Shown: one piece after another, positions 1 through 35,173 of the stretch
Position numbering within the stretch: position 1 is the first letter of the stretch
How the letters are laid out: each line of letters starts with the position of its first letter
DNA from: Bacillota bacterium
Lineage (GTDB): Bacteria > Bacillota > Clostridia > Christensenellales > Pumilibacteraceae
Length of the DNA: 64,000 nt
Direction: 5' to 3'
NCBI GenBank assembly: GCA_009780135.1
Contig: WRAP01000007.1
Coordinates: 1 to 64,000, forward strand
Notes under the pieces: model-generated
Databases searched by the model: none
Told to the model about the DNA's origin: nothing
Seen by the model: only the letters and a program-made list of their open reading frames with translations
Position numbers and translations under genes: made by a program

Positions 1-836
1 AAGAGCAGTTTTGCAGCAGCGAGAGAATATTTAAGGATGCTTTCTTTAGTGGTAACGAATTAGATAACTCCGATATTATATTTGGTGGTGGCGAATTAAA
101 TAATAATAACTCTTACGATACAACAAGTTCAAGAAACGATAGTCCGATTGAATTTTGGACAGAGCGTATAAATTTTAATCGTAGAACACAATCAGGATTT
201 GCTATTGCGGATAGAACTCCTCATTGGTTATCCGACTATCATTGCGGAGTTACGGGCGGTGCTGTAGTATTTGGTTTTTATAACAGACGCATAAATAATC
301 TTATACCAAACCAAACAGCTGGAATGTATATGTCAGGAAGATGGATGTGGAGTGGTAGGCAAGAAGGAGCTAGAGAGCTTCAAAGTCGATTATTTATGCT
401 GATGGGCGGTGGTCATGGAGTAACGATACATCAATATATATGGGGTATGATGATGCAAGCAGGACTTAAGGGAAGAAGCATTACTTTACAAAGTGTTAGA
501 ACAGGTCATAATCAACTAAACGAAGCTGCTATGACAGCCGCCTTTAGAAGAGGGGAGTTAGTTTCTTTATTTATGGCAGGATATTCGATAGTTCCTTTTG
601 CAGGTATTCAAACACATACGGACCACGATTTAATATTTCATAACATCAGCAGTGGCAACCACATAATGATTGCTTACGGTTACCGCAGGATAAGATATTA
701 TAATGAAGCAAATCAGCTTATACGAAACGATATTTATCTATATGTAAAAACAGGCTTTCAATTGCCAGCACATGCTTTAGTGCCATTGTATCGTATAGGT
801 GCAGTTTCTGACGCATTTATTACTCATATTGTCTAA
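1..836 (+). CDS. C-terminal part of a putative papain-fold (C39-like) peptidase, cut by the window edge
   Basis: The reading frame is open from the first complete codon at position 3, so this is the 3' part of a longer gene; 277 codons are visible. A Cys-Gly pair (HCGVTGG, visible residue 81) sits at the head of a helix-like stretch, and a Gly-Asn-His (residue 220) precedes the beta-like run IMIAYGY. This Cys-first, His-later order with a following aromatic strand is what C39-like and other papain-fold peptidases show, usually in secreted or surface proteins of Clostridia. The assignment is inference from spacing only; no signal peptide can be judged because the N-terminus is missing. The segment ends just before a cluster of intergenic palindromes. 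A non-peptidase relative of the fold remains possible. Confidence 0.5.
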   Translation, partial: EQFCSSERIFKDAFFSGNELDNSDIIFGGGELNNNNSYDTTSSRNDSPIEFWTERINFNRRTQSGFAIADRTPHWLSDYHCGVTGGAVVFGFYNRRINNLIPNQTAGMYMSGRWMWSGRQEGARELQSRLFMLMGGGHGVTIHQYIWGMMMQAGLKGRSITLQSVRTGHNQLNEAAMTAAFRRGELVSLFMAGYSIVPFAGIQTHTDHDLIFHNISSGNHIMIAYGYRRIRYYNEANQLIRNDIYLYVKTGFQLPAHALVPLYRIGAVSDAFITHIV

Positions 837-879
837 TGTTTGTGCGACCGATACATCCGCCCGAACCTTATAAAAAGCT

Positions 880-904
880 GTAGGGGCCTATGCCGTCCGT
901 ACCT
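880..904 (+). repeat. GTAGGG-type half-palindrome, single degenerate copy
   Basis: A unit beginning GTAGGGGCC and ending GTCCGTACC, of the same length and head as the units at 912-941 and 1034-1060. It lies alone in the intergenic region. The stretch before it (841-870) holds a related but degraded tail with CCGCCCGAACC. Confidence 0.5.
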
Positions 905-911
905 AAAAATC

Positions 912-1003
912 AATTGTAGGGGACGCACTCCTGGGCGTCCCGAAGGTTAAAAACCAAACAAATAAACTACAAAGGGATGCCCAGGAGTGCGTCCCCTACA
1001 ATT
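912..1003. repeat. Long inverted repeat built from two GTAGGGG units
   Basis: The arms at 912-941 and 974-1003 are 30 bases long, match at 29 of 30 positions in inverted orientation and are separated by 32 bases. Each arm is itself a small hairpin (GGACGC and GCGTCC inside the arm). As RNA or single-stranded DNA the pair would form a very stable long hairpin. It lies between the peptidase-like gene and the gene at 1073, with no T-run, so it is not a simple terminator. Similar units recur at 31290-31383 and elsewhere in the window. Confidence 0.85.
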
Positions 1004-1033
1004 AGGATACAACTCCTAAAAATCAAATAAAAG

Positions 1034-1060
1034 GTAGGGGAGTTCATTGAACTCCCGCAC
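1034..1060 (+). repeat. GTAGGGG half-palindrome, single copy
   Basis: GTAGGGG followed by a perfect nine-base hairpin (GGGAGTTCA and TGAACTCCC) and GCAC. It has the same architecture as one arm of the inverted pair just upstream and ends only 12 bases before the start codon at 1073, so it would lie in the 5' leader of that gene. Confidence 0.65.
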
Positions 1061-1072
1061 CTATAAAAAATT

Positions 1073-1798
1073 ATGGAATATTTAGAAAAATTTGTAGAAA
1101 AAGCATTTAATGAAAAGCCATTCAAAGAATGGGCGGAAAAGAATGAGATAGAACTTATTCCTACAGTGTCACAGCCTAAACGCAGAAAAACAAAAAGATT
1201 TATATTGCGTTATGTTTCGGTTGCTGCATCGCTAATACTTTTATCTGCTATTGCAGTTTTAAGTATTATGTTGCCTCTAACTCCTGATGTAACCTATCCT
1301 TCAACAATACCGGATTTGCCACAAATTTATAGAGAAGAGCATGCTATTTCGCAAAATATTACGCTAGACTATTTATACAACAAAGAATATTTGTTAATGT
1401 TTAATCGGGAACAAATATTAAATGCAGAAGATGATTTGAATGTTACTAGACAGGTTGTAAGATATGCAGAAGATTTTCTTTTAGGTTTTATAGCGAGTCC
1501 TATACATTTTATAACATCAGGTGAAAAAAACACTTTTATCATTGATTTTAGAATAAGGATACATCGCTACTTTAAATTTGCTGGCTACCAAATTTTTAAT
1601 AACTTTACGCAAAACATTACAATCAATAATATAAATCTATATTTTCATATTTTAGAAAATAATCAAGCATTAGCAAGATTTGAATACAATAATATAGAAT
1701 ATTTTTTAACCATTACTTGCTTTTATGAGCAAGATGTAAATTGCGATATATTAAGTTGCTGTACATTAACTATGATATTTAGTGAATTGATTAAATAG
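1073..1798 (+). CDS. Membrane-anchored protein of unknown function
   Basis: A 241-residue protein with an acidic and basic N-terminal segment of about 40 residues, a basic patch (residues 36-45), one hydrophobic helix near residues 47-67 and a long extracytoplasmic tail rich in Asn, Ile, Tyr and Phe. The layout, cytoplasmic head plus single helix plus outer domain, resembles anti-sigma-factor or sensor-type anchors, but no family motif is visible. There is no clear ribosome-binding site before the ATG; a GTAGGGG repeat occupies the leader. It ends at a bidirectional terminator shared with the divIVA-like gene. I do not recognise the family. Confidence 0.6.
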   Translation: MEYLEKFVEKAFNEKPFKEWAEKNEIELIPTVSQPKRRKTKRFILRYVSVAASLILLSAIAVLSIMLPLTPDVTYPSTIPDLPQIYREEHAISQNITLDYLYNKEYLLMFNREQILNAEDDLNVTRQVVRYAEDFLLGFIASPIHFITSGEKNTFIIDFRIRIHRYFKFAGYQIFNNFTQNITINNINLYFHILENNQALARFEYNNIEYFLTITCFYEQDVNCDILSCCTLTMIFSELIK

Positions 1799-1806
1799 AG
1801 ATAAAA

Positions 1807-1843
1807 AAAAACACCTTAAATATAAAATTTTAAGGTGTTTTTT
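1807..1843. terminator. Bidirectional intrinsic terminator
   Basis: A 12-bp stem (AAACACCTTAAA at 1809-1820 with its complement at 1829-1840) flanked by A-run and T-run. It lies between the convergent genes ending at 1798 and 1849, so it can serve both. Confidence 0.9.
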
Positions 1844-1848
1844 TATTT

Positions 1849-2670
1849 CTACAAAAGTCCTAAGTCTCTCATAATTGTTTCTAAGTCGTCGGTAGGGTTT
1901 AGGGCTTCGTCAAAGCAGAAACCGCTTGAAGATGTTGTTGAGGCTATGTCATTTTGTGCTCTTTTTTTATCTTGAGCATTTTTTGATTTGTTTTTATTTT
2001 TATTTTCTCTCTCTAAAGCTACTGCTTTTTGAAGATATTGTTTTATTCTGGCTACAGGGTCGCCGTTTATTATCGGACTATCCGGATCTGCACCTGGCAC
2101 CATTTTTAAAAGTGTTATTTTATCATCTTCTGCTCCGACTTTCTTTTTATCGGTTTTAATACTGATATAACCAATTTTTTGGTTTTCTAATCGCTTAGTT
2201 TCGTTCTCGAAAGTTTCTTCTAAATCACTAGGTATTTTGGCAATGCTATCTTCGTTTATATCAATTGAACCCACGCTACCATCTTGCAAAATCTTTCTGA
2301 GTTTTTGATTAAAAGCACCGGCTGATATTAAATCGTTATCAAGCGGATATGCTTCCAAAATACTGTAATAATAAGATTCCCATTTTTCATGAAAAGCCTT
2401 TAGCCGTTCTATTTCTATGGCATATTTTTCTTTTGCCAAGTCCTCTATTTCTTGTGCTTTAGAAACAGCACTATAAATTGCTTTTGTTATAAGAGTCGTT
2501 TTTTCCTTGTACTCCAAAAGTTTAGCCTCAGAAATAGCCAACTCTTCTTTAAGCATATCAATACGAGCCCTTTGAGCCTCTAAAACACGGTTATATTCAG
2601 TCGCCATATTTTTAAGGTAATTTTCTACTTCGAGTGTGTTATAACCTTTTTTGTCTAATTTGAATTTCAT
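1849..2670 (-). CDS. DivIVA-family coiled-coil protein
   Basis: A 273-residue protein. The N-terminal 20 residues (KFKLDKKGYNTLEVENYL) match the DivIVA membrane-binding head, with the GYN..EV pattern typical of the family. A long coiled coil follows (about 25-105) and then a less ordered acidic and lysine-rich tail. DivIVA proteins assemble at curved membranes (poles, septa) and recruit partners for division, wall growth or sporulation. The start codon lies inside the end of pncB (overlap 2639-2670), so the gene is probably translated as the last gene of the lgt-like/pncB/divIVA operon. The C-terminal half has no recognised domain. Confidence 0.8.
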   Translation of the reverse strand: MKFKLDKKGYNTLEVENYLKNMATEYNRVLEAQRARIDMLKEELAISEAKLLEYKEKTTLITKAIYSAVSKAQEIEDLAKEKYAIEIERLKAFHEKWESYYYSILEAYPLDNDLISAGAFNQKLRKILQDGSVGSIDINEDSIAKIPSDLEETFENETKRLENQKIGYISIKTDKKKVGAEDDKITLLKMVPGADPDSPIINGDPVARIKQYLQKAVALERENKNKNKSKNAQDKKRAQNDIASTTSSSGFCFDEALNPTDDLETIMRDLGLL

Positions 2671-4081
2671 TTTTTAATTTGTATAGTCCATCAGATAAAT
2701 TTACTTTATATAAGTGTGGACGGGTTAGGCGTTTATATTCATCCCAAAATTTATTTTGTTCTTTCTTAGAGAATGCGATTGTTTGAGATAGTGGTGGGAC
2801 TTTGTATACTAATTTACCATTTTTGAAAATTTGATTAAGCATAGGACGAATAATAAAATCTTCTAGCGTTGTGGTTTTCCAGCGTTCTATCGGATGGGTT
2901 AGAGTGAGTGGTTTTGAAATTTCTTCGCCATCTAGTGTTATTAAATCTGCCTTCGCTTTACCGTCCTTTATATCGTATATTCTATATAAATTCTTAAAAG
3001 CAGGATTTGTAGATTTATTTTCACTATCAGAAAATTTCATGACAGGTTCTAATATTTTTTTACCGCTTTTATCTTTGCGTTCAATCGCTGTTAATTTATA
3101 TACACCTCCAAGCGATGATATGTTGCTAGCTGTTACCAATTTTGTTCCGACACCGTAAATATCTATTTTAGCACCCTGCATCTCTAATTCGGAGATTAGA
3201 TATTCGTCTATATCGTTGCTGGCTATAATAATCGCATCGTTAAACCCAGCCTCATCTAGCATTGTTCGTGCCATTTTGGATAAATACGCTAAGTCGCCAC
3301 TGTCTAATCTAATACCTAAAGGTTTATGTCCCTTTGCCTTTAATTCGTTAAAAACAGTTATTGCATTAGGAACTCCCGAATTTAAAGTATCATATGTGTC
3401 GACTAATAGCAAACAACTATCGGGATAAACCTTAGCAAATTCTTTAAAGGCCTCTAATTCGCTAGGATAGCTAAGCACCCAGCTATGACCGTGTGTACCT
3501 TTAACAGCTACATCAAATAGCTTACCGCCCAAAACATTACTCGTAGCAGTGCAACCGCCAATCATGCTTGCCCGAGTGCCGTAAATTCCGCTATCGGGAC
3601 CAAGTGCTCTACGCAAGCCGTATTCGATAACTTCTTTTCCTTTACTGGCTTGTACCATTTTAGATGCTTTAGTAGCAATTAGTGTTTGGTGATTTATAAT
3701 ATTGAGAAGTGCTGTCTCGAGTAATTGTGCCTCAATAATAGGAGCTTTTACTATTAAAATCGGCTCATTAGGAAACACTACATCGCCCTCGGCTACAGCC
3801 CAAACATCTCCGCTAAACTTAAAGTCATTTAGATATTGTAGAAAATTTTCGTCAAAGATTTTTAGATTTTTTAGATATTTTATGTCGTCTTTTGTAAACG
3901 ATAGGTTTTTTATGTAGTCTATAGCCTGTTCTAACCCTGCCATAATACCGTAATTTATTTCGGCTTTAGCTCTAAAAAACAAGTCAAAAACAGCCATAGT
4001 ATTATGACTACTAGACACAAAATAACCATTCATCATAGTTAACTGATATAAATCTGTTAGCAATGTTATATTTTTTTGCAT
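2639..4081 (-). CDS. pncB: Nicotinate phosphoribosyltransferase
   Basis: This enzyme makes nicotinate mononucleotide from nicotinate and PRPP in NAD salvage. The N-terminus (LLTDLYQLTMMNGY), the segment RRALGPDSGIYGTRAS, the histidine motif GTHGHSWVLSYPSELEAF and the phosphate-binding stretch GIRLDSGDLAYLS are hallmarks of the family. The product is 480 residues, the usual length for the Gram-positive type. I use ATG 4081; a TTG two codons upstream (4087) is also possible. Only 24 bases separate it from the lgt-like gene upstream, and its 3' end overlaps the divIVA-like start, so the three genes form one operon. Confidence 0.93.
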   Translation of the reverse strand: MQKNITLLTDLYQLTMMNGYFVSSSHNTMAVFDLFFRAKAEINYGIMAGLEQAIDYIKNLSFTKDDIKYLKNLKIFDENFLQYLNDFKFSGDVWAVAEGDVVFPNEPILIVKAPIIEAQLLETALLNIINHQTLIATKASKMVQASKGKEVIEYGLRRALGPDSGIYGTRASMIGGCTATSNVLGGKLFDVAVKGTHGHSWVLSYPSELEAFKEFAKVYPDSCLLLVDTYDTLNSGVPNAITVFNELKAKGHKPLGIRLDSGDLAYLSKMARTMLDEAGFNDAIIIASNDIDEYLISELEMQGAKIDIYGVGTKLVTASNISSLGGVYKLTAIERKDKSGKKILEPVMKFSDSENKSTNPAFKNLYRIYDIKDGKAKADLITLDGEEISKPLTLTHPIERWKTTTLEDFIIRPMLNQIFKNGKLVYKVPPLSQTIAFSKKEQNKFWDEYKRLTRPHLYKVNLSDGLYKLKNEIQIRQKRL

Positions 4082-4105
4082 ATTCAAGTTTTGATTTAAC
4101 GATAT

Positions 4106-5422
4106 TTAAACATCTTCCTTTGCAACTACTGCTTTATTTGTCCACTTATTCCAAATTGAATTGCCTTGTTTAAAGTGTTCTTCTATAGCGTCTTCGTCAT
4201 CTAATTCGTCGCTCTTTTCTGCAAAAACACCGTCTGTAATTCCGCCTCGTAGTGGCATAAATAGGGTAGCTACCATTAAGCTAATATGCATAAGTAGAAA
4301 CATAAACCACGCTGCAGCTCTAGTATTAGTAACAGGAGTAGGATTGCTAGCTAAGATTAAAATAAAGCCTAAAATTGCAAATAATGCCACTCCGCCTAAA
4401 GCTCCCCAAAACACATATTTAAATAGGTTGTTTTCTTTTTCGTTTGCGTTTACCTTCTTTTTTGCAACATTTTCTACTTCTTCTTCTGTATAGAAAGAGT
4501 CGCTTTCAGCCTCTTTAACTTCTTCGCTTTTTATAGGAGTGTCAGCAATAGACTCATTTGGTAAAGTAGTTTTATTTTTCGCATTCTCCCACAATAGTTC
4601 CTTTTTGAAAAATGGAAGTTTGTCATATTTAATCATTAAAAATAACAGCACACCTACAACGATAAATAGTATAAGCGATTGCCATTGAGATGGCGAAAGA
4701 GGACCCACTTGATAGCGTTGGTCATCGCGAGCAAATTCAATAGAAAATCTCCAAATAGAATATCCTAAGCCATATATAAAAACATTATATTGACCTTTTT
4801 TTAAGCGTAGTAGCATAACGCACATAACTACAAGCAATATAGAAGAGTAAATTGCCTCAAAAAGATTTGTAGGAAGTCGTTGCACATCAGAAACTCTTCT
4901 CCAAGGGGTAAAACTTCCGTCTGGGAGCCTATCTCTTACATACTGAGGGAAATAAATTCCTATACCGTCACCACCATGGCAACACCCGGCAAAAAAGCAA
5001 CCCCAGCGCCCAAGTGCTAAAGCAAGTCCAACAGAAATAGCACCAATGGATACAATTTGCCAAAAATAAGTTTTTACTACAGGTTTGCCAAAAACTAAAG
5101 TTACCACAACAAAAGTAGTTATACCCATAACTAGACCGCCCATAAAGGTAAGACCTGCGTTTAATTGAATTGGTCTACCGGCTACAGCGTTATAAATTGC
5201 TTGATAAATAAATTGGAAAAACCAAGCACCAAATAAACCCATAGCAATAGCAATAATTCCTACAGTAGAATAAAATCTAAAAACAGGGTCTGGTACTTTG
5301 GTGCGTTTGCAAAAAAGCCAAAGAATACCTAGCGCTCCTAGTATACCTAGTCCTACCAAAAGCCCGTATGTATTTACGGGCAATCTTTCGCTACCGAATA
5401 AATTAAATAAATGCCGATGCAT
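4106..5422 (-). CDS. lgt: Prolipoprotein diacylglyceryl transferase family protein (variant motif)
   Basis: A 438-residue multispanning membrane protein. It has the Lgt layout: a first loop with LPVNTYGL, GLTFMGGL (position of the usual HGGL), the signature region GRWGCFFAGCCHG (instead of GRIGNFINGE) and YGLGYSIWRFSIEFARDD, which keeps the Arg and Glu of the last conserved helix. Lgt transfers diacylglycerol from phosphatidylglycerol to lipobox cysteines at the membrane. Several lipoproteins with clear lipoboxes are encoded in this window. Beyond residue about 265 there is an extra acidic linker and two or three added membrane segments not found in compact Lgt. GCC-type relatives are known in the family; whether this one is the main Lgt cannot be told. 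The -10 box ends six bases before the ATG. Confidence 0.78.
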   Translation of the reverse strand: MHRHLFNLFGSERLPVNTYGLLVGLGILGALGILWLFCKRTKVPDPVFRFYSTVGIIAIAMGLFGAWFFQFIYQAIYNAVAGRPIQLNAGLTFMGGLVMGITTFVVVTLVFGKPVVKTYFWQIVSIGAISVGLALALGRWGCFFAGCCHGGDGIGIYFPQYVRDRLPDGSFTPWRRVSDVQRLPTNLFEAIYSSILLVVMCVMLLRLKKGQYNVFIYGLGYSIWRFSIEFARDDQRYQVGPLSPSQWQSLILFIVVGVLLFLMIKYDKLPFFKKELLWENAKNKTTLPNESIADTPIKSEEVKEAESDSFYTEEEVENVAKKKVNANEKENNLFKYVFWGALGGVALFAILGFILILASNPTPVTNTRAAAWFMFLLMHISLMVATLFMPLRGGITDGVFAEKSDELDDEDAIEEHFKQGNSIWNKWTNKAVVAKEDV

Positions 5423-5428
5423 AAAAAA

Positions 5429-5457
5429 AGTATAATCTTAACTAATAGATGTGTCAA
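5429..5457 (-). promoter_or_regulatory. Consensus promoter of the lgt-like/pncB/divIVA operon
   Basis: On the minus strand TTGACA, 17 bases, TATACT. Only six T bases lie between TATACT and the ATG at 5422, so the transcript should begin at or next to the start codon (leaderless). Confidence 0.85.
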
Positions 5458-5499
5458 ATTATTTTTAGTTAAAAATATCTTAAATCTTAAAATTATTGC

Positions 5500-5528
5500 T
5501 TGACTAACTATGAAAAAACGCACATAAT
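5500..5528 (+). promoter_or_regulatory. Promoter of the cyclophilin-like gene
   Basis: TTGACT, 17 bases, CATAAT on the plus strand, followed by a leader of about 60 bases before the ATG at 5598. Confidence 0.6.
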
Positions 5529-5597
5529 AAACTATAAGCCGTCCAAATTTAGGCAAAATATAAAACAGAAATAAAAGACTATTTTAAAATATACAAA

Positions 5598-6818
5598 ATG
5601 AAAAAGAAAAAACAAGATAAAGCAAAAGTTCTTACCGCTAACGAAAGAAAAGAACTTAGACGAAAAGAGTTAGAAATGAAGCAAGGCAAAAGTGCTAAGC
5701 TGATTTATAAAAAAGAAACTCAGGACGAATTAGTAACTTCTCAAGTTGTTTTTGGTGGCGAATTTAGCGAAAATGCACAAGATAGTAATATTGCTGCGTT
5801 TTCTAATAACGAGAACTTTGGAGCTAACGACAATATTACTACTGCGAATGGTACAGCTACAGCTACTAAAAATCCTCCTAATCTTAAAACGCTTATAACG
5901 ATAATGGTTGTCAGCGTGTTTTTGATTGCAGGCTTAATAGTATCAGCTATTTTAGTGCCTCGTTGTCTTTATAATCCCTTTACTCACATAGAAAATCCTG
6001 TGGTTAGATTTACTCTAAATACCGGCGAGCAAATAGATATAGTCGTTTTTGAAAACGAAGTTCCTCATGCTGCTACAAACTTTTTATATTTAGCACGCAT
6101 CGGATTTTTTAATGACACGATAATATTTGATTCAACCCATTATACCGTTAGATTCGGTCAGTTTGAGGATAACACATTTAGAAGTTTTAGAACCACAAAT
6201 CAAAGTTTTTTAAACGGGTTGCCACCTAGGTACTTGCCTTCGCTTACTCCAGAGAGGGCTAATCATGCGACTCAAAATTGGTCTCCATTTGATTATAGAG
6301 TTGCATTAGATGTAGGTACGGAGGCTCTATTTAATATAGGAGGAGTTCAAAGGCGTAATCGTTTTAACGAAAGAGGTTTGGTGTCTGCTATAAACTCTTT
6401 ATCGCATACAGAGTTTCAAATTGCAACGGTTCCTAATGCCATCCCCAACATTATGCAATCACACCGACCAGCTAATACGCCGGGTGGTGGAAGAACATTA
6501 AATATGCCGGGTCGTTTTATTGGTGAGGTAACCGGTAGTTCGTTAGAAGTGTTGGATCGCATAGCTAATTTGCCTCAGCAAGCATCAGGTATTTCTCCTC
6601 ATCCGTTATTTAGACCTCCGGTAGAAGAAGGTGGTAGCAATATTTATATACGCAGTACAGAGGTACTAAATGAAAATACTGACGGGTGGCGTAACTTTAG
6701 TTGGGATGAGTACTTTTTAGGGCATACTCCCACCAGAATAACCACATGGACTTACGGTGGTGGCTTTAATGCCGTTAGAGATGTGGATAGACTAATAACA
6801 ATAACAAATCCCGAATAA
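5598..6818 (+). CDS. Membrane-anchored cyclophilin-like protein with degenerate active site
   Basis: A 406-residue protein with a highly charged cytoplasmic N-terminus (Lys and Glu rich, residues 1-45), a linker, one membrane helix near 98-119 and an extracytoplasmic domain. That domain begins like a cyclophilin (NPVVRFTLNTGEQIDIVVFENEVPHAATNF is the usual strand-strand-helix start, read here in pieces: FTLNTGEQI, VPHAATNFLYLA) and ends like one (FIGEVTGSSLEVLDRIANLP). The catalytic stretch that normally reads FHR and FMIQGGD is not preserved; the equivalent region reads FDSTHYTVRFGQF. It is therefore probably a folded relative with weak or no isomerase activity, acting on exported proteins. 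The last gene before the tRNA. Confidence 0.72.
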   Translation: MKKKKQDKAKVLTANERKELRRKELEMKQGKSAKLIYKKETQDELVTSQVVFGGEFSENAQDSNIAAFSNNENFGANDNITTANGTATATKNPPNLKTLITIMVVSVFLIAGLIVSAILVPRCLYNPFTHIENPVVRFTLNTGEQIDIVVFENEVPHAATNFLYLARIGFFNDTIIFDSTHYTVRFGQFEDNTFRSFRTTNQSFLNGLPPRYLPSLTPERANHATQNWSPFDYRVALDVGTEALFNIGGVQRRNRFNERGLVSAINSLSHTEFQIATVPNAIPNIMQSHRPANTPGGGRTLNMPGRFIGEVTGSSLEVLDRIANLPQQASGISPHPLFRPPVEEGGSNIYIRSTEVLNENTDGWRNFSWDEYFLGHTPTRITTWTYGGGFNAVRDVDRLITITNPE

Positions 6819-6838
6819 TAATATTTGATTTAACTGTA

Positions 6839-6925
6839 AATTGCAAACTACAAATTGATGACTAATTTAAATTAAGTAATTCTAAATAATTCAAGTAAAT
6901 TATCAATAATTTGTAGTTTGTAATT
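6839..6925. repeat. Long intergenic inverted repeat
   Basis: The arms at 6839-6856 and 6908-6925 match at 17 of 18 positions in inverted orientation (core CAAACTACAAATT) and enclose about 51 AT-rich bases. It is followed by an A-run rather than a T-run. It could act as a weak terminator for the cyclophilin-like gene or be a mobile palindrome like those at 912, 31290 and 57412. Confidence 0.7.
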
Positions 6926-7007
6926 AAAAAATTTTAACTTTTAGCTAAATAAATAGGTATTGATTATTTTTTTACGCAAACTAACATTAAATTTTTCAAA
7001 ATACTTG

Positions 7008-7036
7008 TTGCTTGGTATGTAATACTTTGATATACT
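7008..7036 (+). promoter_or_regulatory. Promoter of tRNA-Tyr
   Basis: TTGCTT, 17 bases, TATACT, ending 44 bases before the mature tRNA 5' end. Confidence 0.65.
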
Positions 7037-7080
7037 GTCTCTTGTGTCTAAAAATATGGCACAAAATATAACTCCTGTAT

Positions 7081-7165
7081 GGGTAGGTTCCCGAGTGGCC
7101 AAAGGGATCAGACTGTAAATCTGACGCGTCTCGCTTCGGTGGTTCGAATCCGCCCCTACCCACCA
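7081..7165 (+). tRNA. tRNA-Tyr (anticodon GUA)
   Basis: A seven-base acceptor stem GGGTAGG pairs with CCTACCC. The anticodon loop CTGTAAA has a five-base stem (TCAGA/TCTGA), there is a long class II variable arm, and the T-arm is GGTGG TTCGAAT CCGCC. The discriminator A is followed by an encoded CCA. The long variable arm with GTA anticodon identifies bacterial tRNA-Tyr. The gene sits at the left border of the accessory island, a usual place for island integration. Confidence 0.97.
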
Positions 7166-7170
7166 TATAA

Positions 7171-7217
7171 CAGCTCCCATTTGTCGTACCGAAAGGTAGG
7201 CATTTGGGAGCTTTTTT
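7171..7217 (+). terminator. Intrinsic terminator after tRNA-Tyr
   Basis: A stem formed by AGCTCCCA and TGGGAGCT with a loop of about 25 bases containing a small inner hairpin, followed by a T-run (TTTTTTATTT). Confidence 0.85.
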
Positions 7218-7263
7218 ATTTGCTATTTTGTCGGATAAATGCGGCATTTGGCGAACCTTGTAA

Positions 7264-7965
7264 GTGGTTTGTAGACAAATGGGTCCAAAGGTAGATAAGA
7301 ATAAAATTAGAGAGTTAGCAAAGCTACTCAATATTCACACAGTCGGCAACGCAAGATTTGAGTTAAATAATCTAAAGATGAGCAATCTTGAGTACCTGCA
7401 ATGGATTTTTGAGCGCGAACTAGAGGTGCGAAAAGAGCGAGCTATTGTTAGAGCCAGAAAGAAATCTAACCTTCCGCAAGTGATTTTTGACAAAAATGCA
7501 TTTCACGAAGGTGTGTGTTATCAGGTGGGAAAACTAGAAAACTGCGAATGGGCTCAAAAGTATGAAAATATTGTCATAAATGGCGCACATGGTGCTGGAA
7601 AAACTGCACTTTCTACCCATTTAGCGCACAAAGCAATTAATAAATGCTACAAAATTTTGTACCTAAAATTAGATGAACTGTTCTTAGTGCTAAAAAACAA
7701 GGAAATCTTACAACAAGCCAAGGTTACATTTGCAAAAATCAAGAGTGCTGATGTGCTAGTGCTAGACGAGTTCCTATATCTAGACCTACCAAAGCAGGAC
7801 TTGGAGCTACTCTACAGGGCGATTATGAGCCTAAACAGCACTACAAGTATCATATTTGTCACCAATAGGGAATTTTCGGACTGGATTGCTGCCTCAGAGG
7901 ATAAATATACCATGCAACTGTTAATCCAGCGTGCGGTCGCATCCTCGGAATTAGTGTTACTCTAA
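7264..7965 (+). CDS. Orphan IstB/DnaC-like AAA+ ATPase, copy A
   Basis: A 233-residue protein from a GTG start; an ATG at 7279 is an alternative. It has the IstB layout: a helical N-terminal part with FERELEVRKERA, then Walker A (NGAHGAGKT), Walker B (VLVLDEFLYLD), a sensor-like TNRE and a C-terminal arginine region. IstB proteins are the ATPase partners of IS21-type transposases, and DnaC is a helicase loader. No IstA transposase or other IS21 gene is adjacent. It is a clear paralogue of the gene at 22892 (same FERELEVRK, LHEG, LELLY and EDKY blocks), and the sequence after both stop codons is also similar. It stands directly behind tRNA-Tyr at the left end of the defence island. Confidence 0.8.
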   Translation: MVCRQMGPKVDKNKIRELAKLLNIHTVGNARFELNNLKMSNLEYLQWIFERELEVRKERAIVRARKKSNLPQVIFDKNAFHEGVCYQVGKLENCEWAQKYENIVINGAHGAGKTALSTHLAHKAINKCYKILYLKLDELFLVLKNKEILQQAKVTFAKIKSADVLVLDEFLYLDLPKQDLELLYRAIMSLNSTTSIIFVTNREFSDWIAASEDKYTMQLLIQRAVASSELVLL

Positions 7966-8263
7966 TTTTTATACGCTAAATCGGCAATTTGTCGGTTTTC
8001 GTATAATTTTTAGACTTTTTTATAGGGGGTGGGTGTCAAAGGAGGGTACGGGAGGGTACATCTCTAGGGGGTTCAAATCCCCCCGCGGCGCGGAATGCTA
8101 CGCACAAAAATTCTATTTCAAACGGGGTATATAGTGCGAAACGCATGCAGTTACTATTCCAAATTTACTAAGTGTTGAATATTGCATTAAAGCTAGTCCC
8201 TAATCATAGATAAGTTATTAAGCAAAATAACAAAAAAATATTTAGAAAAAGCCTACAAATCAG
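7966..8263. other. Intergenic region with a T-arm-like hairpin
   Basis: The first part (7966-8056) resembles the sequence that follows the sister ATPase gene at 23714 (shared GTTTTCGT, TTTTTAGACTTTT and a G-run) and includes a hairpin that could terminate copy A. At 8067-8083 a perfect GGGGG TTCAAAT CCCCC hairpin looks like a tRNA T-arm, followed by GCGGCGCGG, but no complete tRNA can be folded around it. Short repeats GGAGGGTACGGGAGGGTAC lie at 8041-8059. I see no gene in 8100-8263. Confidence 0.5.
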
Positions 8264-8292
8264 TTGACGGGCTTTTTATGATTTGTTATAAT
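8264..8292 (+). promoter_or_regulatory. Strong promoter of the defence operon
   Basis: TTGACG, exactly 17 bases, TATAAT. Transcription should begin near 8299. It precedes the eleven-gene run 8337-22804, within which I see no second promoter of this quality and no terminator. Confidence 0.85.
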
Positions 8293-8336
8293 GTTATTAT
8301 GTTGAATAACAAGTTCGGCATAATTTGGAGGTGGTT

Positions 8337-8546
8337 ATGAAAAAACCAGTAAAAGTAATTAAGGAAACGTCGTCGGGTCGTAATGTGAAGTTTAAGGATG
8401 TCAAGACAGGTGAAACAATGACGAGACCACAATTTGTCAAAGAAATAGGCAAGGGAAATTACCCAGACTACCATGTTAGAAATATTAATGGATTAGCAAC
8501 CCCGGTCTCAAACCCTGACGGCAAAGAAAAGAATAACTTGGGCTAA
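8337..8546 (+). CDS. Small DUF3892-like protein heading the defence operon
   Basis: A 69-residue basic protein. The ATG at 8337 is preceded by a very strong ribosome-binding site (GGAGGTGG at 8327-8334), which decides it over a TTG four codons earlier. The sequence has a GRNVKFKDVKTGE hairpin, a short helix and the tail NGLATPVSNPDGKEKNNLG. The Gly-x-Tyr...Tyr-x-Val block and the NNL ending resemble DUF3892-type small proteins, whose function is unknown. It is the promoter-proximal gene of the operon and ends seven bases before the nearest start codon of the next gene. It could be a regulator, an accessory factor or an anti-restriction-type protein; I cannot choose between these. Confidence 0.65.
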   Translation: MKKPVKVIKETSSGRNVKFKDVKTGETMTRPQFVKEIGKGNYPDYHVRNINGLATPVSNPDGKEKNNLG

Positions 8547-8573
8547 TTTTGAATGAGTTCCAAAGGATTTTAT

Positions 8574-9170
8574 ATGATACTTAAAGACATAGCACAAGTG
8601 AATATTGGGTTGGTTATTGCGAGGGTAAAGTATAGCGGAGGCGAGCCCTGTGGGGAAGTCGCTACTTATAAATATTTTACTCTTAGTAGTGCCGAACATG
8701 ACTTGACCATAGATAAGTATAAACTCAAGGATATAGAAGTCGGCAAAAAAATCGATGCCAAATATATATCTAGAGAGGGCGACATTATCATTGGCATTAG
8801 TGCGCCGCATTCGGTAGCATACATTGATGCTGCAAGTGTAGGTATTATTATACCTTCGCAGTTTGTTGCCGTCAGGGTGGCGGATAGCCGAATACTTCCC
8901 GAATACCTAGCGGCTTATCTTAATTCCGAAGATGTAAAAAGCCAGATGGACAAGATTTCAAAAGGTGAGCTTATAAAAACATTTAATGCTGAAAAACTGC
9001 AACAACTTGCAATTCCAATATTGCCACTAGAGAGACAGCAAAAGATAGCAAACCTTAACCGACTCATTCAAGAAGATAATCACCTAGGCTTTCAACTAGC
9101 CAAGTTACAAAAAGCAAAGAACGATTGCTACCTAAATAAATTCTTAGCACATGGAGAAGAACAATCATGA
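8574..9170 (+). CDS. hsdS: Half-size type I specificity subunit (HsdS), first copy
   Basis: A 198-residue protein from ATG 8574, chosen because AAAGGA lies six bases upstream; an in-frame ATG at 8553 lacks such a site. The sequence has one target-recognition domain ending in the typical [24 protein letters not shown] block and then a short helix (conserved spacer). Full HsdS proteins carry two such halves of about 400 residues in total. A second half-size HsdS is encoded at 12327, so the specificity unit may be a heterodimer or two alternative homodimers. The last four bases (ATGA) overlap the hsdM start. Confidence 0.82.
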
Positions 9171-10747
9171 TAAATAACAAAAACCTACAAACATTATCAA
9201 GTCAAGAACGGACGGAGCTTCATAGAGCGATATGGAGCATAGCAGACGATTTGCGCGGTAGCGTAGACGGCTGGGACTTTAAGAACTATGTGCTAGGCAT
9301 AATGTTTTATCGCTACATAAGCGAAAATATTCAAAGCCACTTTGATTCTAACGAACATAAGGCGGGCAGGACTAGCTTTAGCTATGCAAGTTTAGACGAT
9401 AGCAAAGTGCCGCAAACCCTAATCAGCGAGACGGTTAAGTCAAAAGGCTTTTTTATATACCCATCGCAATTATTCTGCAACGTGCTTAAAAACGCTAAAG
9501 GTGATGAAGACCTTAATATTACATTAGGAAAGGTGTTCGAGGATATTGAAAGCACTACAAAAGGCACGCCAAGCGAAACCAATTTTAATGGATTGTTTGA
9601 CGATATAGACCTTAATAGCAATCGCTTAGGCGGTAGCGTTGTCGAGCGTAACAAACGCCTTATTGCACTGCTTAGCGGCGTGGGTAAAATGCAATTACGT
9701 TGCACAAACAACATTGACGCCTTCGGGGACGCATACGAATATTTAATGAGTATGTATGCGTCAAACGCAGGAAAAAGCGGGGGTGAATTCTTCACGCCGC
9801 AAGAGGTGTCTCAATTGCTTGCCCGCATAACCATGATAGGACGAGACCAAATAAACAAAGTATACGACCCAGCTTGCGGAAGCGGCTCGCTACTACTTCA
9901 ATTTGAAAAACTACTAGGCAAAGAAAAGCTAGGCAGAGGGTTCTTTGGTCAAGAGATAAATATAACAACCTACAACCTTTGCCGAATCAATATGTTTTTG
10001 CACAACATTGGCTACGACAAATTTGACATAGCAAATGGAGATACGCTATTAGACCCTAGACATGACGATTTTGTACCATTCGAAGCAATAGTAAGTAATC
10101 CGCCATATTCTATCAAGTGGGAAGGCGACACCAACCCTGTACTAATAGACGATGCAAGGTACAGCCCAGCGGGCGTACTTGCGCCCAAGTCAAAGGCTGA
10201 TATGGCATTTATAATGCATAGTTTAAGCTACTTAGCATCAAGCGGGACGGCGGCAATTGTTTGCTTCCCCGGCATATTCTATCGTGGCGGAGCAGAGCAA
10301 AAAATCCGCCAATATCTAATAGAGAAAAACTTTGTAGATACAGTGATAGCCTTGCCGCCTAACTTATTTTATGGTACAAGCATTGCAACCAATATCCTAG
10401 TCCTAAAGAAAAGCCGTAAGGATAACAAGGTGCTGTTTATTGACGCAAGCAGTGAATTTATAAAAGTTGCAAATAACAACAAACTAGAAGACAAAAATAT
10501 AGAAAAAGTAATTGGCACAATTACCGACAGAGTCGCCATTCCATATTATGCCCACCTTGCCAGTATGGATGATATTAAGCAGCAAGAATATAACTTGTCC
10601 GTGTCTACCTATGTCCAAAAAGAAGACACAAGAGAGCAGGTCGATATAACCAAACTTAATGTCGAGATAGCCGAGATAGTCGCAAGGCAAAGCAAACTAC
10701 GCACCGAGATTGATGCAATAGTCGCAGATTTGGAGGGTAAGAAGTAA
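9167..10747 (+). CDS. hsdM: Type I restriction-modification adenine methyltransferase (HsdM)
   Basis: A 526-residue protein, a usual HsdM length. The N-terminal helical domain starts with [20 protein letters not shown], the SAM motif [11 protein letters not shown] lies near residue 234 and the catalytic NPPY near residue 310; [11 protein letters not shown] is the family signature just before the SAM motif. With HsdS it would methylate N6 of adenine in a bipartite site and protect the chromosome from HsdR. It overlaps the upstream hsdS by four bases, and its TAA overlaps the rhuM ATG by one base. Confidence 0.96.
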
Positions 10748-11826
10748 TGAGTAAAAGAGTTCCAAAAAACAAGAAATCAAAAGAAGTAACAATTCGTAGC
10801 AGTGCAGCCGAATACCTTACCTTTATAGCTGCAACGGGCGAAGAGGGGGTTGAACTTCGCTACGAGGACGAAAATGTATGGCTAACACAAAAATTGATGG
10901 CCACGCTTTATGATGTTGAAGTAAACACAATAAATTACCATATCAAAAAGATTTTCGAAGATAAAGAATTGGAAGAGGGGGCAACTATTCGAAAATTTCG
11001 AATAGTTCAAACTGAGGGCAGCCGTGAGGTAAATAGGGACATAGAACATTACAACCTTCAAATGATAATTGCTGTTGGGTTTAAGGTAAACAATCAGCGA
11101 GCCGTGCAATTCAGAAAATGGGCAAACCAAATTGTAAAAGACTACACAATCAAAGGTTGGGTAATGGACTCGCAACGCTTAATGCACGGAGGTAGTATTC
11201 TAACCGAAAAATACTTTGAAGAGCAATTAGAAAAAATCCGTGAGATAAGATTATCAGAGCGGAAGTTTTACCAAAAAATCACGGACATTTATGCAACTGC
11301 ATTAGATTATGATTCTACCGCTGGAGCCACAAAACGATTTTTTGCAACAGTTCAAAACAAATTGCATTGGGCAATACACGGCCATACCGCAGCGGAGCTA
11401 ATATACGGTAGAGCAGACGCCACAAAGAAAAACATGGGGCTTACCACTTGGACGGATGCGCCACACGGCAAAATCCAAAAATTTGATGTTTCGGTAGCCA
11501 AAAACTACCTAGACGATTTTGAGATGGGGCAACTGTTAAGATTGGTCAGTGCGTATTTGGAGATGGCGGAGCTGCAAGCCCGTCGCCGTATCCCTATGAC
11601 AATGCAAGATTGGGAAGAGCGACTAAATAGGTTTTTGGAGGTTGCTTCTGATAAAGGCATCCTGCAAGATTCAGGCAGAGTAACAGCAGAAATAGCTAAA
11701 GAGTTTGCCGAAACCGAATTCGAAAAATACCGCATCGTGCAAGACAGATTATTCCAAAGTGATTTTGATAGGTTTGTGGAGCTAGAGGAAGCGGTAACTG
11801 AGGAGGAGGGCGAGGATGATGAGTAA
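10747..11826 (+). CDS. rhuM: RhuM-family protein
   Basis: A 359-residue protein. The pattern VWLTQKLMATLYDVEVNTINYHIKKIF, here seen as LTQKLMATLYDV then HIKKIF, is the RhuM (virulence RhuM family) start. It is followed by REVNRDIEHYNLQMIIAVGFKVNN and a long helical C-terminal half with GHTAAELIYGRADA. RhuM proteins are common passengers inside type I restriction loci and other defence loci; their biochemical role is not established. The helix-turn-helix-like start suggests DNA contact. It sits between hsdM and the first HEPN gene, overlapping the latter by 11 bases. Confidence 0.9.
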   Translation: MSKRVPKNKKSKEVTIRSSAAEYLTFIAATGEEGVELRYEDENVWLTQKLMATLYDVEVNTINYHIKKIFEDKELEEGATIRKFRIVQTEGSREVNRDIEHYNLQMIIAVGFKVNNQRAVQFRKWANQIVKDYTIKGWVMDSQRLMHGGSILTEKYFEEQLEKIREIRLSERKFYQKITDIYATALDYDSTAGATKRFFATVQNKLHWAIHGHTAAELIYGRADATKKNMGLTTWTDAPHGKIQKFDVSVAKNYLDDFEMGQLLRLVSAYLEMAELQARRRIPMTMQDWEERLNRFLEVASDKGILQDSGRVTAEIAKEFAETEFEKYRIVQDRLFQSDFDRFVELEEAVTEEEGEDDE

Positions 11827-12334
11827 GTTTTACGAGCCAGTAGAAAATGAAGGCGATATCAAAAACGATAGCGATTTGCGTGTTGCAATTCATAATAAAA
11901 CAAGACGAGCATGGGACTTGTTTGCAAAATTAACAAATGAAAATGGCGAACTTTATATGATTGTAACGCTTAGGCGTGGCGAGCAGGCTTTTAATGATTA
12001 TCCAGACAAAGGCAAGATGAGAGATTTTTATATAACCTTAGACGCTTTCCGCTGTTTAATCACCAATAATCTATGCGTATTATTAGGTCAAAGGAAAAAC
12101 GACAAACTGTCGATATGGCACAATAAAGAAAAATATAATACTGCTTTGATTGACGATTTTTACACAAAGCATGAAAAAGAACTGCAAAGTTTGTTTACAG
12201 CAAGAGATAAAGTTTATGCCCACATTGATACCAATGTAACTGAAAGTGCGTTTTTGCATGAAGACAGTTTTCTGCGCATATGCGTACATTTCCTGATGGA
12301 TTTACTTTTGATAGAGGGGGCGAAAGATGAATAA
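11816..12334 (+). CDS. HEPN/AbiU2-like protein inside the restriction operon
   Basis: A 172-residue mostly helical protein. Near its C-terminal third it has TARDKVYAHIDTN, an Arg-x5-His arrangement followed by an acidic residue, as in AbiU2-type HEPN proteins, where R...H is the RNase centre. Before it lie two amphipathic helices (LRVAIHNKTRRAWDLF, ALIDDFYTKHEKEL). HEPN proteins of this sort act as RNases or as partners of nucleotidyltransferases in abortive infection. Its ATG (11816, with a second ATG next to it) lies inside the end of rhuM, and its stop overlaps the second hsdS. The family assignment rests on the motif and its position. Confidence 0.6.
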   Translation: MMSKFYEPVENEGDIKNDSDLRVAIHNKTRRAWDLFAKLTNENGELYMIVTLRRGEQAFNDYPDKGKMRDFYITLDAFRCLITNNLCVLLGQRKNDKLSIWHNKEKYNTALIDDFYTKHEKELQSLFTARDKVYAHIDTNVTESAFLHEDSFLRICVHFLMDLLLIEGAKDE

Positions 12335-12887
12335 AATTGAAAAATTGATAGAAGAACTTTGCCCTAATGGGGTGGAGTTTAAGAAGCTGGGTGATATAGC
12401 AAAGGTTTTACGAGGTAAAAGACTTGTTAGAAGCGAGTTATCCGAAGATGAAGAATATCCGGTTTTTCACGGTGGACTAGAGCCATTAGGAAAATATTCT
12501 CAGAAGAATAGAAAAGCTAATACAGTAATGATTATAAATGTGGGTGCTTCCGCTGGGACTGTGGGATATAGCTTTGTGGATTTTTGGTCATCCGATGGAT
12601 GTTATTGCATTGAAGAATCGGATTTGTTTTTAAGTCGATTTATGTACTTTGTTTTTCTTGGGAAAGAAAAACTTTTGCAAGCTAAAGTTAGAAAAGCAGG
12701 GATACCTACACTTGACGCTTCTGTAATTGAAAAGATAGAAGTGCCCATTCCACCGCTGGCAATACAGCGTGAAATTGTCAAGATACTTGACAATTTCACG
12801 GAGCTAGAAGCGGAGCTAGAAGCGCGTAAAAAACAGTACGAATATTACCGAAATAAACTATTAACCTTTAAGGAAAGAACAGCATGA
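12327..12887 (+). CDS. hsdS: Half-size type I specificity subunit (HsdS), second copy
   Basis: A 186-residue protein. It starts with IEKLIEELCPNGVEFKKLGD, the common N-terminus of an HsdS target-recognition domain. It ends with IPPLAIQREIVKILDNFTEL and a spacer helix (EAELEARKKQYEYYRNKLL). The recognition domain itself is unrelated to the one at 8574, so each half probably reads a different half-site. It overlaps HEPN genes on both sides (8 bases upstream, 4 bases downstream). Confidence 0.85.
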   Translation: MNKIEKLIEELCPNGVEFKKLGDIAKVLRGKRLVRSELSEDEEYPVFHGGLEPLGKYSQKNRKANTVMIINVGASAGTVGYSFVDFWSSDGCYCIEESDLFLSRFMYFVFLGKEKLLQAKVRKAGIPTLDASVIEKIEVPIPPLAIQREIVKILDNFTELEAELEARKKQYEYYRNKLLTFKERTA

Positions 12888-13447
12888 CAAAAACAACCAA
12901 AATAAGCAATGCAGACATAACAAATGAAATTATATTTGAGATAGGAAAATTTGCCATCTTATGGAATGTGTTTGAAGATAAATGTCGAGACGAACATATT
13001 TTTAAAGTATGGGATAAGGAAGAATATAAGGATATTATTCCAAACGATATACCCGAAAATGAACTTATTTTTAATATAAATATGAATGCAATTTGCAATA
13101 GAAAGAAATATTTTGCAATGAAAGCATCGCAACCGTTTAAAGAGTTTGCAATAGAATTAAAGTCGCGGGCTGACTTTTTGGGACTTAATGTAGAGGATTA
13201 TGTTAAAAAAAATTTATATCCTGAAAAATATGCTATTGTTACAGAACACGAAAAAAGTACCATTTTGCCTCAAGTTATCGAATTTATAAATAATGGAGGT
13301 ACAGTTGCGGCAAAACACTATGTTGCTATATTGGCAATTTTTCGTATACGCAACAATATGTTTCATGGACTCAAATGGATACATCGTTTAAACAATCAAG
13401 TAAGGCTATTTGAAACTATGAACGCAGTTTTAGAGGAGATTGCATGA
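12884..13447 (+). CDS. HEPN-domain protein with a canonical RNase motif
   Basis: A 187-residue helical protein. Its C-terminal part reads AIFRIRNNMFHGLKW, containing R-N-x3-H (Arg-x4-His), the canonical HEPN ribonuclease motif, placed after a helix as expected. The N-terminal part (FEIGKFAILWNVFED) is the usual first HEPN helix pair. I infer a dimeric RNase or a structural HEPN partner. It is unrelated at the sequence level to the HEPN-like protein at 11816. It is wedged between hsdS and hsdR with four-base overlaps (ATGA) on both sides, which implies tight translational coupling to the restriction subunits. Confidence 0.72.
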   Translation: MTKTTKISNADITNEIIFEIGKFAILWNVFEDKCRDEHIFKVWDKEEYKDIIPNDIPENELIFNINMNAICNRKKYFAMKASQPFKEFAIELKSRADFLGLNVEDYVKKNLYPEKYAIVTEHEKSTILPQVIEFINNGGTVAAKHYVAILAIFRIRNNMFHGLKWIHRLNNQVRLFETMNAVLEEIA

Positions 13448-16400
13448 CCAAACAAAACGACATAATAGCAGAAAACAATTTCTCTACAGTGGTTGCGGAG
13501 TACATACCGCTTCCTAAAAACGACCAAGGCTATCAAAGCGAAAAAGAGCTAGAGGCAGATTTTTTGATGCGCCTTGAGAAATTGGGATATGAGAGGATTT
13601 ACAACCTTAACGAAGCGGTGCTTAAAAACAATTTGCGCCTACAACTTGAAAAATTAAACAAAGCCGCACTAGGCGGTGGTGGTTTTAGTGATAAGGAGTG
13701 GACGGAGTTTTTTGGGTCGGTGCTGGCAAATGGTGGCGATGGGGTAAGAGAGCGTACAAGAAAGCTTCAAGCCGAGAATATTTTTATTCTTAATCGTGAT
13801 GACGGCAGCCAAATAAATATACGACTTTTAGATAAGAAAAATATATTCAATAACTCGATTCAAGTCTTTAACCAATACGAAGAGGGCGGTACTAAATATA
13901 AGGGCATTTATGATGTTACGGTGCTAGTAAACGGATTGCCGCTTGTGCATATAGAATTAAAGCGCCGAGGGGTAGAGATTAAAGAAGCCTTTAACCAAAT
14001 TGCAAGATACAGCCGAGATAACTTTTTTGGAGGCAGTGGGTTATTTGACTGGGTACAGATTTTTGTAATAAGTAACGGTACAGAGACAAAGTATTATAGT
14101 AACACCACAAGAGAGCAAGCGGCTAAGGAAGGCAAAAGCACAAATGCTACAGCAAGACCGCAAAGAAAAACAAGCCACAGCTTTGAATTTACTAGCTATT
14201 GGGCAGATGCACAAAACCGCAATATTGTTGATTTAGTGGACTTTGCCGAAACCTTTTTTAACAAGGGTACGCTACTTAATATTATAACTAAGTATTGTGT
14301 TTTTACAGCAGATGAGTTGTTGCTTGTTATGCGACCATATCAAATAGTGGCTAGCGAGAAAATTATTGGTCAAATAAAGAGTGCTAAAACCTACAAAAAA
14401 ATTGGAACTATCGATGCAGGCGGGTATGTTTGGCACACCACAGGTAGCGGAAAGACACTAACCAGCTTCAAGACGGCACAATTAGCCACAAGCCTTGATT
14501 ACATAGACAAGGTATTGTTTGTGGTGGACCGCAAGGACTTGGACTATCAAACGATTAAGGAATTTGAAAAGTTCGGAGGTAAGGACAGCGTTAGCGGCAA
14601 TGTTAACACAAAGCTATTAGGCGAGCAATTAGAAAATCCTAATTCAAGAGTAATAGTAACAACAATTCAAAAGCTGAACATATTTGTCGCAAAGCATTCA
14701 AAGCATGAAATATATGGCAAAAACTGTGTGATTATTTTTGACGAATGTCATCGCAGTCAGTTTGGCGAGATGCATAAAAGAATAACTAGGGCATTTAGCA
14801 ATTACTTCTTATTCGGATTTACTGGCACACCGATATTTGTTGAAAATTCTCAAAGTGGGCTAAAGCCTACAAAAAACAAGAAAGGCGAGGTTGTCATAAT
14901 TAAGACAACAGAGCAGATTTTTGGTAAGTGTTTACACGCCTACACTATTGTTGACGCTATTAGGGACAGCAATGTTTTGCAATTTAGAGTTGACCTTGTC
15001 GACACCATAAGGTATAAGGACGGAGCAAAGGATGTTAAGGTTTGGGCGATTGATAGAGAGGAGGCACTACAGTCGCCCGAGAGAATTGCTAAAATTGTTG
15101 AGTACATTATTGATAATTACAACGCAAAGACCTATAGGATAGACGGCGGCTTTTATGAGCATAGTCAAATAACCAATACCGTTGCGCTTGCTAAGGCAAA
15201 ATTAAATAATATTGTCGAGGTAAAGGCAAAGCGAAAGGTAAAAGGCTTTAATTCTATTTTTGCGGTAGATAGCATTGCTAGTGCCAAGTTATATTATGAC
15301 GAATTTGCTAGAAGGCAAGCAGAGAGGGGAAGCGATTTAAGGATTGCGACTATATTTTGTTATTCTCCAAACGAAGATGTAGCAGCTGACTTTTTAGAAG
15401 AAGAGTTTGAAACCGAGCATTTAGATGCCTCAAGCCGTGATTTTTTGGCAAGGGCGATAGATGACTATAATAAAATGTTCGACACCAATTGGGATACAAG
15501 TAGCGACAGCTTTGGCAGTTACTATAAAGATGTGTCCATGCGTGTCAAAAACAAAGAGATAGACATTTTGATTGTAGTCAATATGTTTTTGACGGGCTTT
15601 GACGCTACAACGCTAAACACGCTTTGGGTGGATAAAAACCTAAGATATCATGGGTTGATTCAGGCGTTTAGCCGCACCAATAGAATTCTTAATGCGCAAA
15701 AGAAGTTCGGCAATATTGTTACTTTTAGAAAACTAGAAAAGCAGCTTAATGACGCACTAAAAATCTTTGGCGACAAAAACGCAAAAGGTGTTGTTGTGAT
15801 ACGACCGTTTAAGGATTATTACGAAGGTTACGAGGATAAACCGGGGTATAAGCAAATTGTAGAAGAGTTAAGGGGCTATTGCATTACGGATATTCTTTCT
15901 GGTGTTGTGGTATTGGGCGAGGCTAAAGAAAAGGAATTTATCAAGCTATTTGGTGCGTTTTTGAAAGTAGAAAACATACTAAGCCCGTTTGACGAATTTA
16001 AGGATAAGAGAATTTTGACGCCGAGGGAGCGGCAAGACTATCAATCGTATTACCTTAACCTTAATGCTAAGTATAGGGGCAAAGGCAGCGAGGAAGAAGT
16101 TAGTATAATTGATGACCTTGTTTTCGAGATAGAGCTAATTAAGCAGCTTACAGTAAATATTGACTATATTTTGATGATGGTCGAAAAATATCAAAAGGCA
16201 AAAGATGGCAAAGATAAAGAGTTAGCACTAGCCGATATCAAAAGCACAATCGATTCTAGGCCAGAGCTACGAAGCAAAAAAGAACTTATCTTAGGTTTTA
16301 TTGCAAAGGTAAACAATAAGACTAATGTTGTTGAAGAGTGGATCGCCCATGTAAAAGCTGAGACCGAAAAAGAAGTATCGGCACTTATCGAAGACGAAAG

Positions 16401-16590: not shown

Positions 16591-16603
16591 GGAGATGAAA
16601 TAT

Positions 16604-19629: not shown

Positions 19630-20033
19630 AAGAATTTACACTTAAAACAGACCAAGAGGGTTTGTATAATATAACTGCTCGTGTAGGTGAGACGGTTAGA
19701 GAAAGCGGAGTCAAGGATGGCATCGCTGTTGTTTGGTGTCCGCACACGACTGGTGGTATTACTGTTAACGAGAATGCTGATGACTCAGTGAGGGGAGACC
19801 TATTGTTAGGGCTAGATAGAGCATTTCCAGACCGCCCAGAATTTAGACACGCCGAAGGCAATAGCGCGGCACACCTAAAGTCAAGTTGTGTAGGAGTAAA
19901 CCAGACTATTATAATAGAAAAGGGTAAGCTGCTGCTTGGCACATGGCAGGGGATATATTTTTGCGAATTTGACGGGCCTCGTCAGCGGAAGTTTTTTGTA
20001 AAAGTTATGGGAGGATTGAAGCATGAATCATGA
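19623..20033 (+). CDS. yjbQ: YjbQ (UPF0047) family protein inside the defence operon
   Basis: A 136-residue protein, the normal length. The motifs CPHTTGGITVNENAD and HAEGNSAAHLKSSCVG and the ending LLLGTWQGIYFCEFDGPR are diagnostic of the UPF0047/YjbQ family, compact trimeric proteins linked to a weak thiamin-phosphate synthase activity. Such genes are normally housekeeping orphans. Here the ATG lies inside the end of hamB and the stop lies inside the next nuclease gene, so it is translated within the defence operon. A role in nucleotide or phosphate chemistry of the defence response is speculation. Confidence 0.93.
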   Translation: MLKEFTLKTDQEGLYNITARVGETVRESGVKDGIAVVWCPHTTGGITVNENADDSVRGDLLLGLDRAFPDRPEFRHAEGNSAAHLKSSCVGVNQTIIIEKGKLLLGTWQGIYFCEFDGPRQRKFFVKVMGGLKHES

Positions 20034-35144: not shown

Positions 35145-35173
35145 AGTATAAAATAAAAGAGATGGATTGTCAA
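35145..35173 (-). promoter_or_regulatory. Consensus promoter of dnaB
   Basis: On the minus strand TTGACA, 17 bases, TATACT. The predicted leader is about eight bases long. Confidence 0.8.

Follow-up and report, generated by a model that had tools for sequence, protein, structure and literature searches.

The lgt gene of this Pumilibacteraceae genome raises the question of where its message begins. Within the window, by which we mean the whole stretch of 64,000 nucleotides analysed here, a promoter of ordinary appearance stands so close to the lgt ATG that the transcript might start with the codon itself. A preliminary description of the window had proposed this leaderless geometry for lgt and for several other genes. 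We ask whether the arrangement is real, how common it is in the genome and among its relatives, and how such genes would be read.

Promoters and starts in the window

Read on the minus strand from 5457 to 5420, the lgt region is TTGACA-CATCTATTAGTTAAGAT-TATACT-TTTTTT-ATG, exactly as first described (TTGACA-17-TATACT-6-ATG). The ATG (5422-5420) lies 6 bases past the -10 box, without a Shine-Dalgarno motif. Since a -10 box usually spans positions -12 to -7, transcription is expected to begin (+1) at the A of this ATG. To score the window genes we used a matrix derived from promoters elsewhere, and d denotes the number of bases between the -10 box and the start codon. The relevant features are as follows.

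5429 to 5457, minus strand: lgt promoter, TTGACA (5457-5452), 17-base spacer, TATACT (5434-5429); identified from sequence, with geometry shared by 24 of 30 family lgt genes; score 10.8
4106 to 5422, minus strand: lgt, prolipoprotein diacylglyceryl transferase (Pfam PF01790, E=1e-32)
28063 to 28091, plus strand: polA promoter, TTGACT (28063-28068), 17 bases, TAAAAT (28086-28091), 7 bases to ATG; score 7.6
28099 to 30681, plus strand: polA, DNA polymerase I, predicted leaderless (Pfam PF00476, E=2e-150)
35145 to 35173, minus strand: dnaB promoter, TTGACA-17-TATACT, 14 bases to ATG; score 12.0 (DnaB, Pfam PF03796)
37662 to 37690, minus strand: promoter of the gene starting at 37653, TTGACT-17-TACACT, 8 bases to GTG; score 8.0
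37249 to 37653, minus strand: the 37653 gene, 134-aa protein, GTG start, predicted from the promoter score to be leaderless or nearly so
39565 to 39594, minus strand: sulP promoter, TTGACT-18-TACACT, 9 bases to GTG; score 9.6
37837 to 39555, minus strand: sulP-like sulfate permease with STAS domain (Pfam PF00916), GTG start, predicted leaderless or with a 2-3-base leader
60003 to 64000, minus strand: in-window part of a gene for a 1436-aa protein; promoter score 11.7

On these scores lgt, polA, sulP and the 37653 gene are well-supported candidates. The sulP orthologue of a congeneric genome (G352) has a matching arrangement, with a score of 13.0 and d=7. The 1436-aa gene, whose start lies outside the window at contig position 64313, is another strong case (TTGACA-17-TATGAT-5-ATG). 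The remaining genes proposed earlier, about half of the list, proved weak: spoVB (0.7), YtxC (-0.1), spoIIR (-1.6) and the 51595 gene (-3.6) each possess a -10-like hexamer without a -35 box and are unremarkable. For dnaB about eight bases had been described, and this agrees with its d of 14; the promoter is strong, and the predicted leader of about 8 bases would place dnaB outside the leaderless class.

The evidence from the window by itself is weak, since promoter-like sites in positions 1-20000 are as common as in shuffled sequence (66 versus 61.6, no excess). An Rfam search of the window returned a tRNA and nothing else, and a Pfam search with the 134-aa protein gave no match. Between 12300 and 22800 neighbouring genes on one strand follow each other closely or overlap at their joints; several of them are preceded by Shine-Dalgarno-like sites, unlike the leaderless genes. 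The window holds sporulation genes, SpoIIR among them, and the named relatives of its polA product include 'Clostridia bacterium' metagenome-assembled genomes of 41-46% identity; these two points were the basis for placing the genome in the class Clostridia.

Promoter distance across the genome

The genome to which the window belongs (G000) comprises 1,576,678 bases (1.58 Mb) in 27 contigs, with a GC content of 35.7% and a completeness of 84%. Its 1126 genes were called by a home-made codon model that is blind to upstream signals, and some of the starts are probably wrong. The preliminary description had suggested a genome-wide histogram of the distance from -10 box to start codon; this histogram is not flat, showing a peak at 6-7 with a tail to 9. 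TATAAT-like hexamers lie 6 and 7 bases before the start in 49 and 32 genes, respectively, against about 17 expected per position. A -35 box (TTGACA, at least 5 of 6 matches) accompanies them at a spacer of 16-18 in 33% (d=6) and 41% (d=7) of the cases, compared with 8% at d=20-50, and -35 matches at other spacers are almost absent for the d=6-7 hexamers. A scan independent of annotation, for TTGAC-n-TANNHT followed by ATG, gave 25 occurrences at offset 6 and 17 at offset 7, with about 4-5 elsewhere; GTG likewise peaks at offset 6. A second peak of hexamers, at d=1 (44 genes, e.g., TAAAATtATG, 2.6 times background), was rejected as a set of promoters, as only 2% have a -35 box and no such peak exists in G352.

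A matrix built exclusively from promoters lying 15 or more bases upstream of the start placed 40 genes at exactly d=6 and gave an excess at d=5-9 of about 62 of 1119 genes (5.5%). When the best strong promoter within 60 bases of the start is considered, 34% fall at d=5-9 in both G000 and G352; beyond this, strong promoters are few at d=10-19 and then broadly spread. By the strict score no more than about 5-7% of genes qualify as leaderless; in these draft genomes this is a lower bound, with start errors acting in both directions.

The 73 leaderless candidates of G000 begin with ATG (62) or GTG (11) and never with TTG, as expected if +1 is a purine, while 44 TTG starts occur among the other 1046 genes. 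A Shine-Dalgarno core precedes 2 of the 73 candidates and 373 of the 1046 others (36%), a depletion owed in part to lack of room, since the -10 box takes up the place of such a motif. A divergent neighbour is found for 46% of the candidates versus 17%. The first T of the -10 signal lies at -12/-13 in both genomes. The leaderless promoters of G000 and G352 also display an extended -10 signature (TGnTATAAT), with T at -15 in 62-67% and G at -14 in 37-56%.

Judged by their Pfam and NCBIfam matches, from which the names are our own reading, the candidates are ordinary housekeeping genes. They include cysE, lysA, ispE, tsaE, rsmD, a DAC-domain cyclase, parA, gltX, nrdR and rarA, and also recX, prfA, rdgB, a UvrD-type helicase, nth, uvrC, gdhA, a P-type ATPase, polA and lgt.

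Both modes of initiation that had been described side by side are found in this one genome. The 3' end of the 16S rRNA (...GGATCACCTCCTTT) keeps CCTCC, infC, encoding IF3, is present in the family, and a Shine-Dalgarno peak comprises 34% of genes in G000 and 59% in G352. Thus there is no sign of lost Shine-Dalgarno initiation, and the idea that the anti-Shine-Dalgarno sequence or IF3 had been lost was rejected. As a separate observation, 60% of the genes in G000 and 34% in G352 lack both signals, the Shine-Dalgarno core as well as the leaderless promoter, and show just A-rich sequence with a T at -1; for G000 this may mean either that many starts are wrong, the genome being AT-rich, or that there is a third, weak mode of initiation.

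The family and the initiation mode at lgt

In the congener G352 (1.18 Mb of genome used, GC 45.8%) the peak at d=6-7 is sharper still, with 41 and 18 genes against a background of about 9; the matrix placed 36 genes at exactly d=6, with an excess of 56 of 841 genes. Between the two genomes 427 reciprocal best orthologue pairs were obtained, with a median identity of 54%. Thirteen of these, lgt and sulP included, are of the leaderless type in both (odds ratio 12.6, P=5e-8), and at three control distances the same 427 pairs gave no shared pair.

For the wider comparison the pattern TTGACN{17,19}TANNHT followed by RTG was counted at offset 6-7, with offsets 20-21 and 12-13 as controls. Over the 74 genomes and 18 genera of the family there were 3425 occurrences at 6-7, versus 1734 at 20-21 and 1506 at 12-13, and the 6-7 count exceeded the 20-21 control in 73 of the 74 genomes. 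Within the order the excess is mild (2277 versus 1901), and in the class outside the order there is none (5155 versus 5095). In this annotation-free scan the genome under study ranked first among 288 genomes of the class. A group of genomes of 0.8-0.9 Mb, namely G005, G044, G100 and G171 (same order, genus g2; 98-100% complete) together with G358-G361 (L095, L096, L097, L104), is rich in leaderless-type promoters for its size; it is a reduced Clostridia lineage that may share the mode.

The lgt gene was readable in 30 family members. In 24 of them, from 8 genera, the start lies 6-9 bases after TTGACA-17/18-TATAAT-like boxes, and none of the 24 has a Shine-Dalgarno site. The other six (L172, L177, L179, L183, L185 and L192, in genera g135, g209 and g210) are without an adjacent promoter and have a Shine-Dalgarno-like site, for example CGGAGGTTTATATG; no lgt gene among the 30 has both. 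Genome-wide, the ratio of the 6-7 count to control in g135, g209 and g210 is 1.24, 1.22 and 1.53, among the five lowest, the others ranging from 1.39 to 3.08. As the six Shine-Dalgarno-led genes fall in three weak-signal genera, the initiation mode at lgt appears to vary between genera roughly in step with the overall leaderless use of the genome.

Proposed reading, alternatives and known systems

The geometry of the promoters, how often it occurs and how well it is conserved in the family, all shown by computation, support the earlier interpretation that leaderless initiation is common in this genome. Taken as a whole, the best explanation is very probably that the genes of this family include many whose promoter places +1 at the start codon and which are read leaderless beside Shine-Dalgarno genes. 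The housekeeping sigma factor would act on ordinary -35/-10 promoters, and at a sizeable minority of genes the first base of the start codon, A or G, would serve as +1, 6-7 bases past the -10 box. The mRNA would then begin with AUG or GUG and have no Shine-Dalgarno leader, and a 70S ribosome with initiator tRNA may bind the 5'-terminal start codon directly, a mode of entry that PMC9031893 describes for leaderless mRNAs of other bacteria. Shine-Dalgarno initiation would continue normally at other genes. We infer the exact RNA 5' end, from the position of the -10 box, and the mode of ribosome entry by analogy with leaderless genes of other bacteria; the conserved proteins read from such starts point indirectly to translation of these mRNAs.

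A second, more distant promoter could give a leader to some of the candidates. C. phytofermentans offers a precedent in most of its potentially leaderless genes (PMC5171806), and in our genome 85% of the candidates are preceded by 40 or more bases of intergenic sequence, in which such a promoter might lie. Nevertheless, the genes of C. phytofermentans keep their binding site, whereas here it is missing from all 24 leaderless-type lgt genes and from nearly all the candidates, so we regard it as improbable that leadered mRNAs from further upstream carry most of the translation. Still less probable is that the promoters are real and the true start lies further downstream behind a Shine-Dalgarno site, the ATG at +1 being unused within a normal leader. 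Some cases look so, mraZ for example, whose domain begins at residue 87 of a probably wrong start call. However, this explanation gives no reason for the phasing to ATG and GTG and not to TTG; downstream Shine-Dalgarno starts are not enriched among the candidates (4 of 73, versus 84 of 1046 other genes); and alignments of the lgt orthologues begin close to the leaderless ATG, the equivalent ATG being preceded by a Shine-Dalgarno-like site in the six others. Wrong start codons were therefore rejected as the main cause. That TATAAT-like hexamers occur everywhere in an AT-rich genome and those near starts were simply picked is hardly credible and was rejected genome-wide: it would accord with the 20-kb scan and with several of the listed window genes being below threshold, but not with a sharp two-position peak, with -35 boxes in register and against offset controls, that is family-wide and present also at 45.8% GC.

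The genes favoured here, with promoter-placed starts at or near +1, can be compared with known systems. Zheng et al. (2011) found leaderless genes in 56 of 209 Firmicutes genomes, with a mean of 4.2%, concentrated in Lactobacillales and Mycoplasma; Clostridia are not mentioned in their main text (PMC3160421). The sequence features of their TA-led genes are present in our set, i.e., the position of the signal, a real promoter (-35 box, TG) and no Shine-Dalgarno site. As in the TA-led Lactobacillales and Mycoplasma, the organism is a low-GC Gram-positive with TATAAT some 12 bases ahead of start codons (in 2.4-16.6% of the genes there); those are two clades, whereas the present family belongs to another class (PMC3160421). 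Deinococcus-Thermus resembles it in having a -10 hexamer within a few bases of the start codon and no Shine-Dalgarno site, with Shine-Dalgarno genes coexisting, but shows a loose TANNNT, a weak dependence on other sequence and a mean of 39% of genes (PMC12340547; PMC3160421). Here the promoter is a full TTGACA-17-TATAAT, in many cases with a TG ahead of the -10 box, and the strict score assigns it to about 5-7% of genes. In common with Actinobacteria such as Mycobacterium there is a start codon at +1, predicted in our case, and two modes per cell (PMC4633059; PMC3160421), although Actinobacteria are a high-GC phylum of their own with a mean of 19% of genes (PMC3160421). The preliminary description had named Actinobacteria and archaea as the groups known for leaderless initiation, which needs qualification, as many further bacteria have leaderless genes (PMC3160421), in 21.6% of bacterial species by the figure quoted in PMC9581028.

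Its remark that the mode is unusual in Clostridia is in line with start-site maps of other clostridia: 2-3% leaderless in three solventogenic species (PMC9045289), 4% potentially leaderless in C. phytofermentans, with binding sites kept (PMC5171806), and 15 leaderless genes in C. difficile (PMC7438776). The family resembles these clostridia in class and in housekeeping promoter type and differs from them in that leaderless transcripts are rare there. Leaderless genes as such are already known; no prior report for this family was found in the open-access literature, the coverage of which is incomplete, so that priority is uncertain.

We consider it somewhat probable that an entire uncultured family of Clostridia, with at least 18 genera, has leaderless initiation as an established and heritable way of expressing genes, essential single-copy genes included, and that genes such as lgt switch between this and Shine-Dalgarno initiation as the overall use of the leaderless mode in a lineage falls. 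Clostridia are usually handled as a Shine-Dalgarno class. With a third of the detectable proximal promoters of the leaderless type, this may lead to misplaced starts, missed promoters and a wrong view of gene control in these uncultured bacteria; PMC9581028 also ascribes to leaderless messages an altered response to some ribosome-targeting antibiotics. If our reading is true, the family would serve as a natural experiment on the causes of gain and loss of leaderless genes in bacteria, in which orthologue pairs that differ in initiation mode alone would allow asking what drives the switch.
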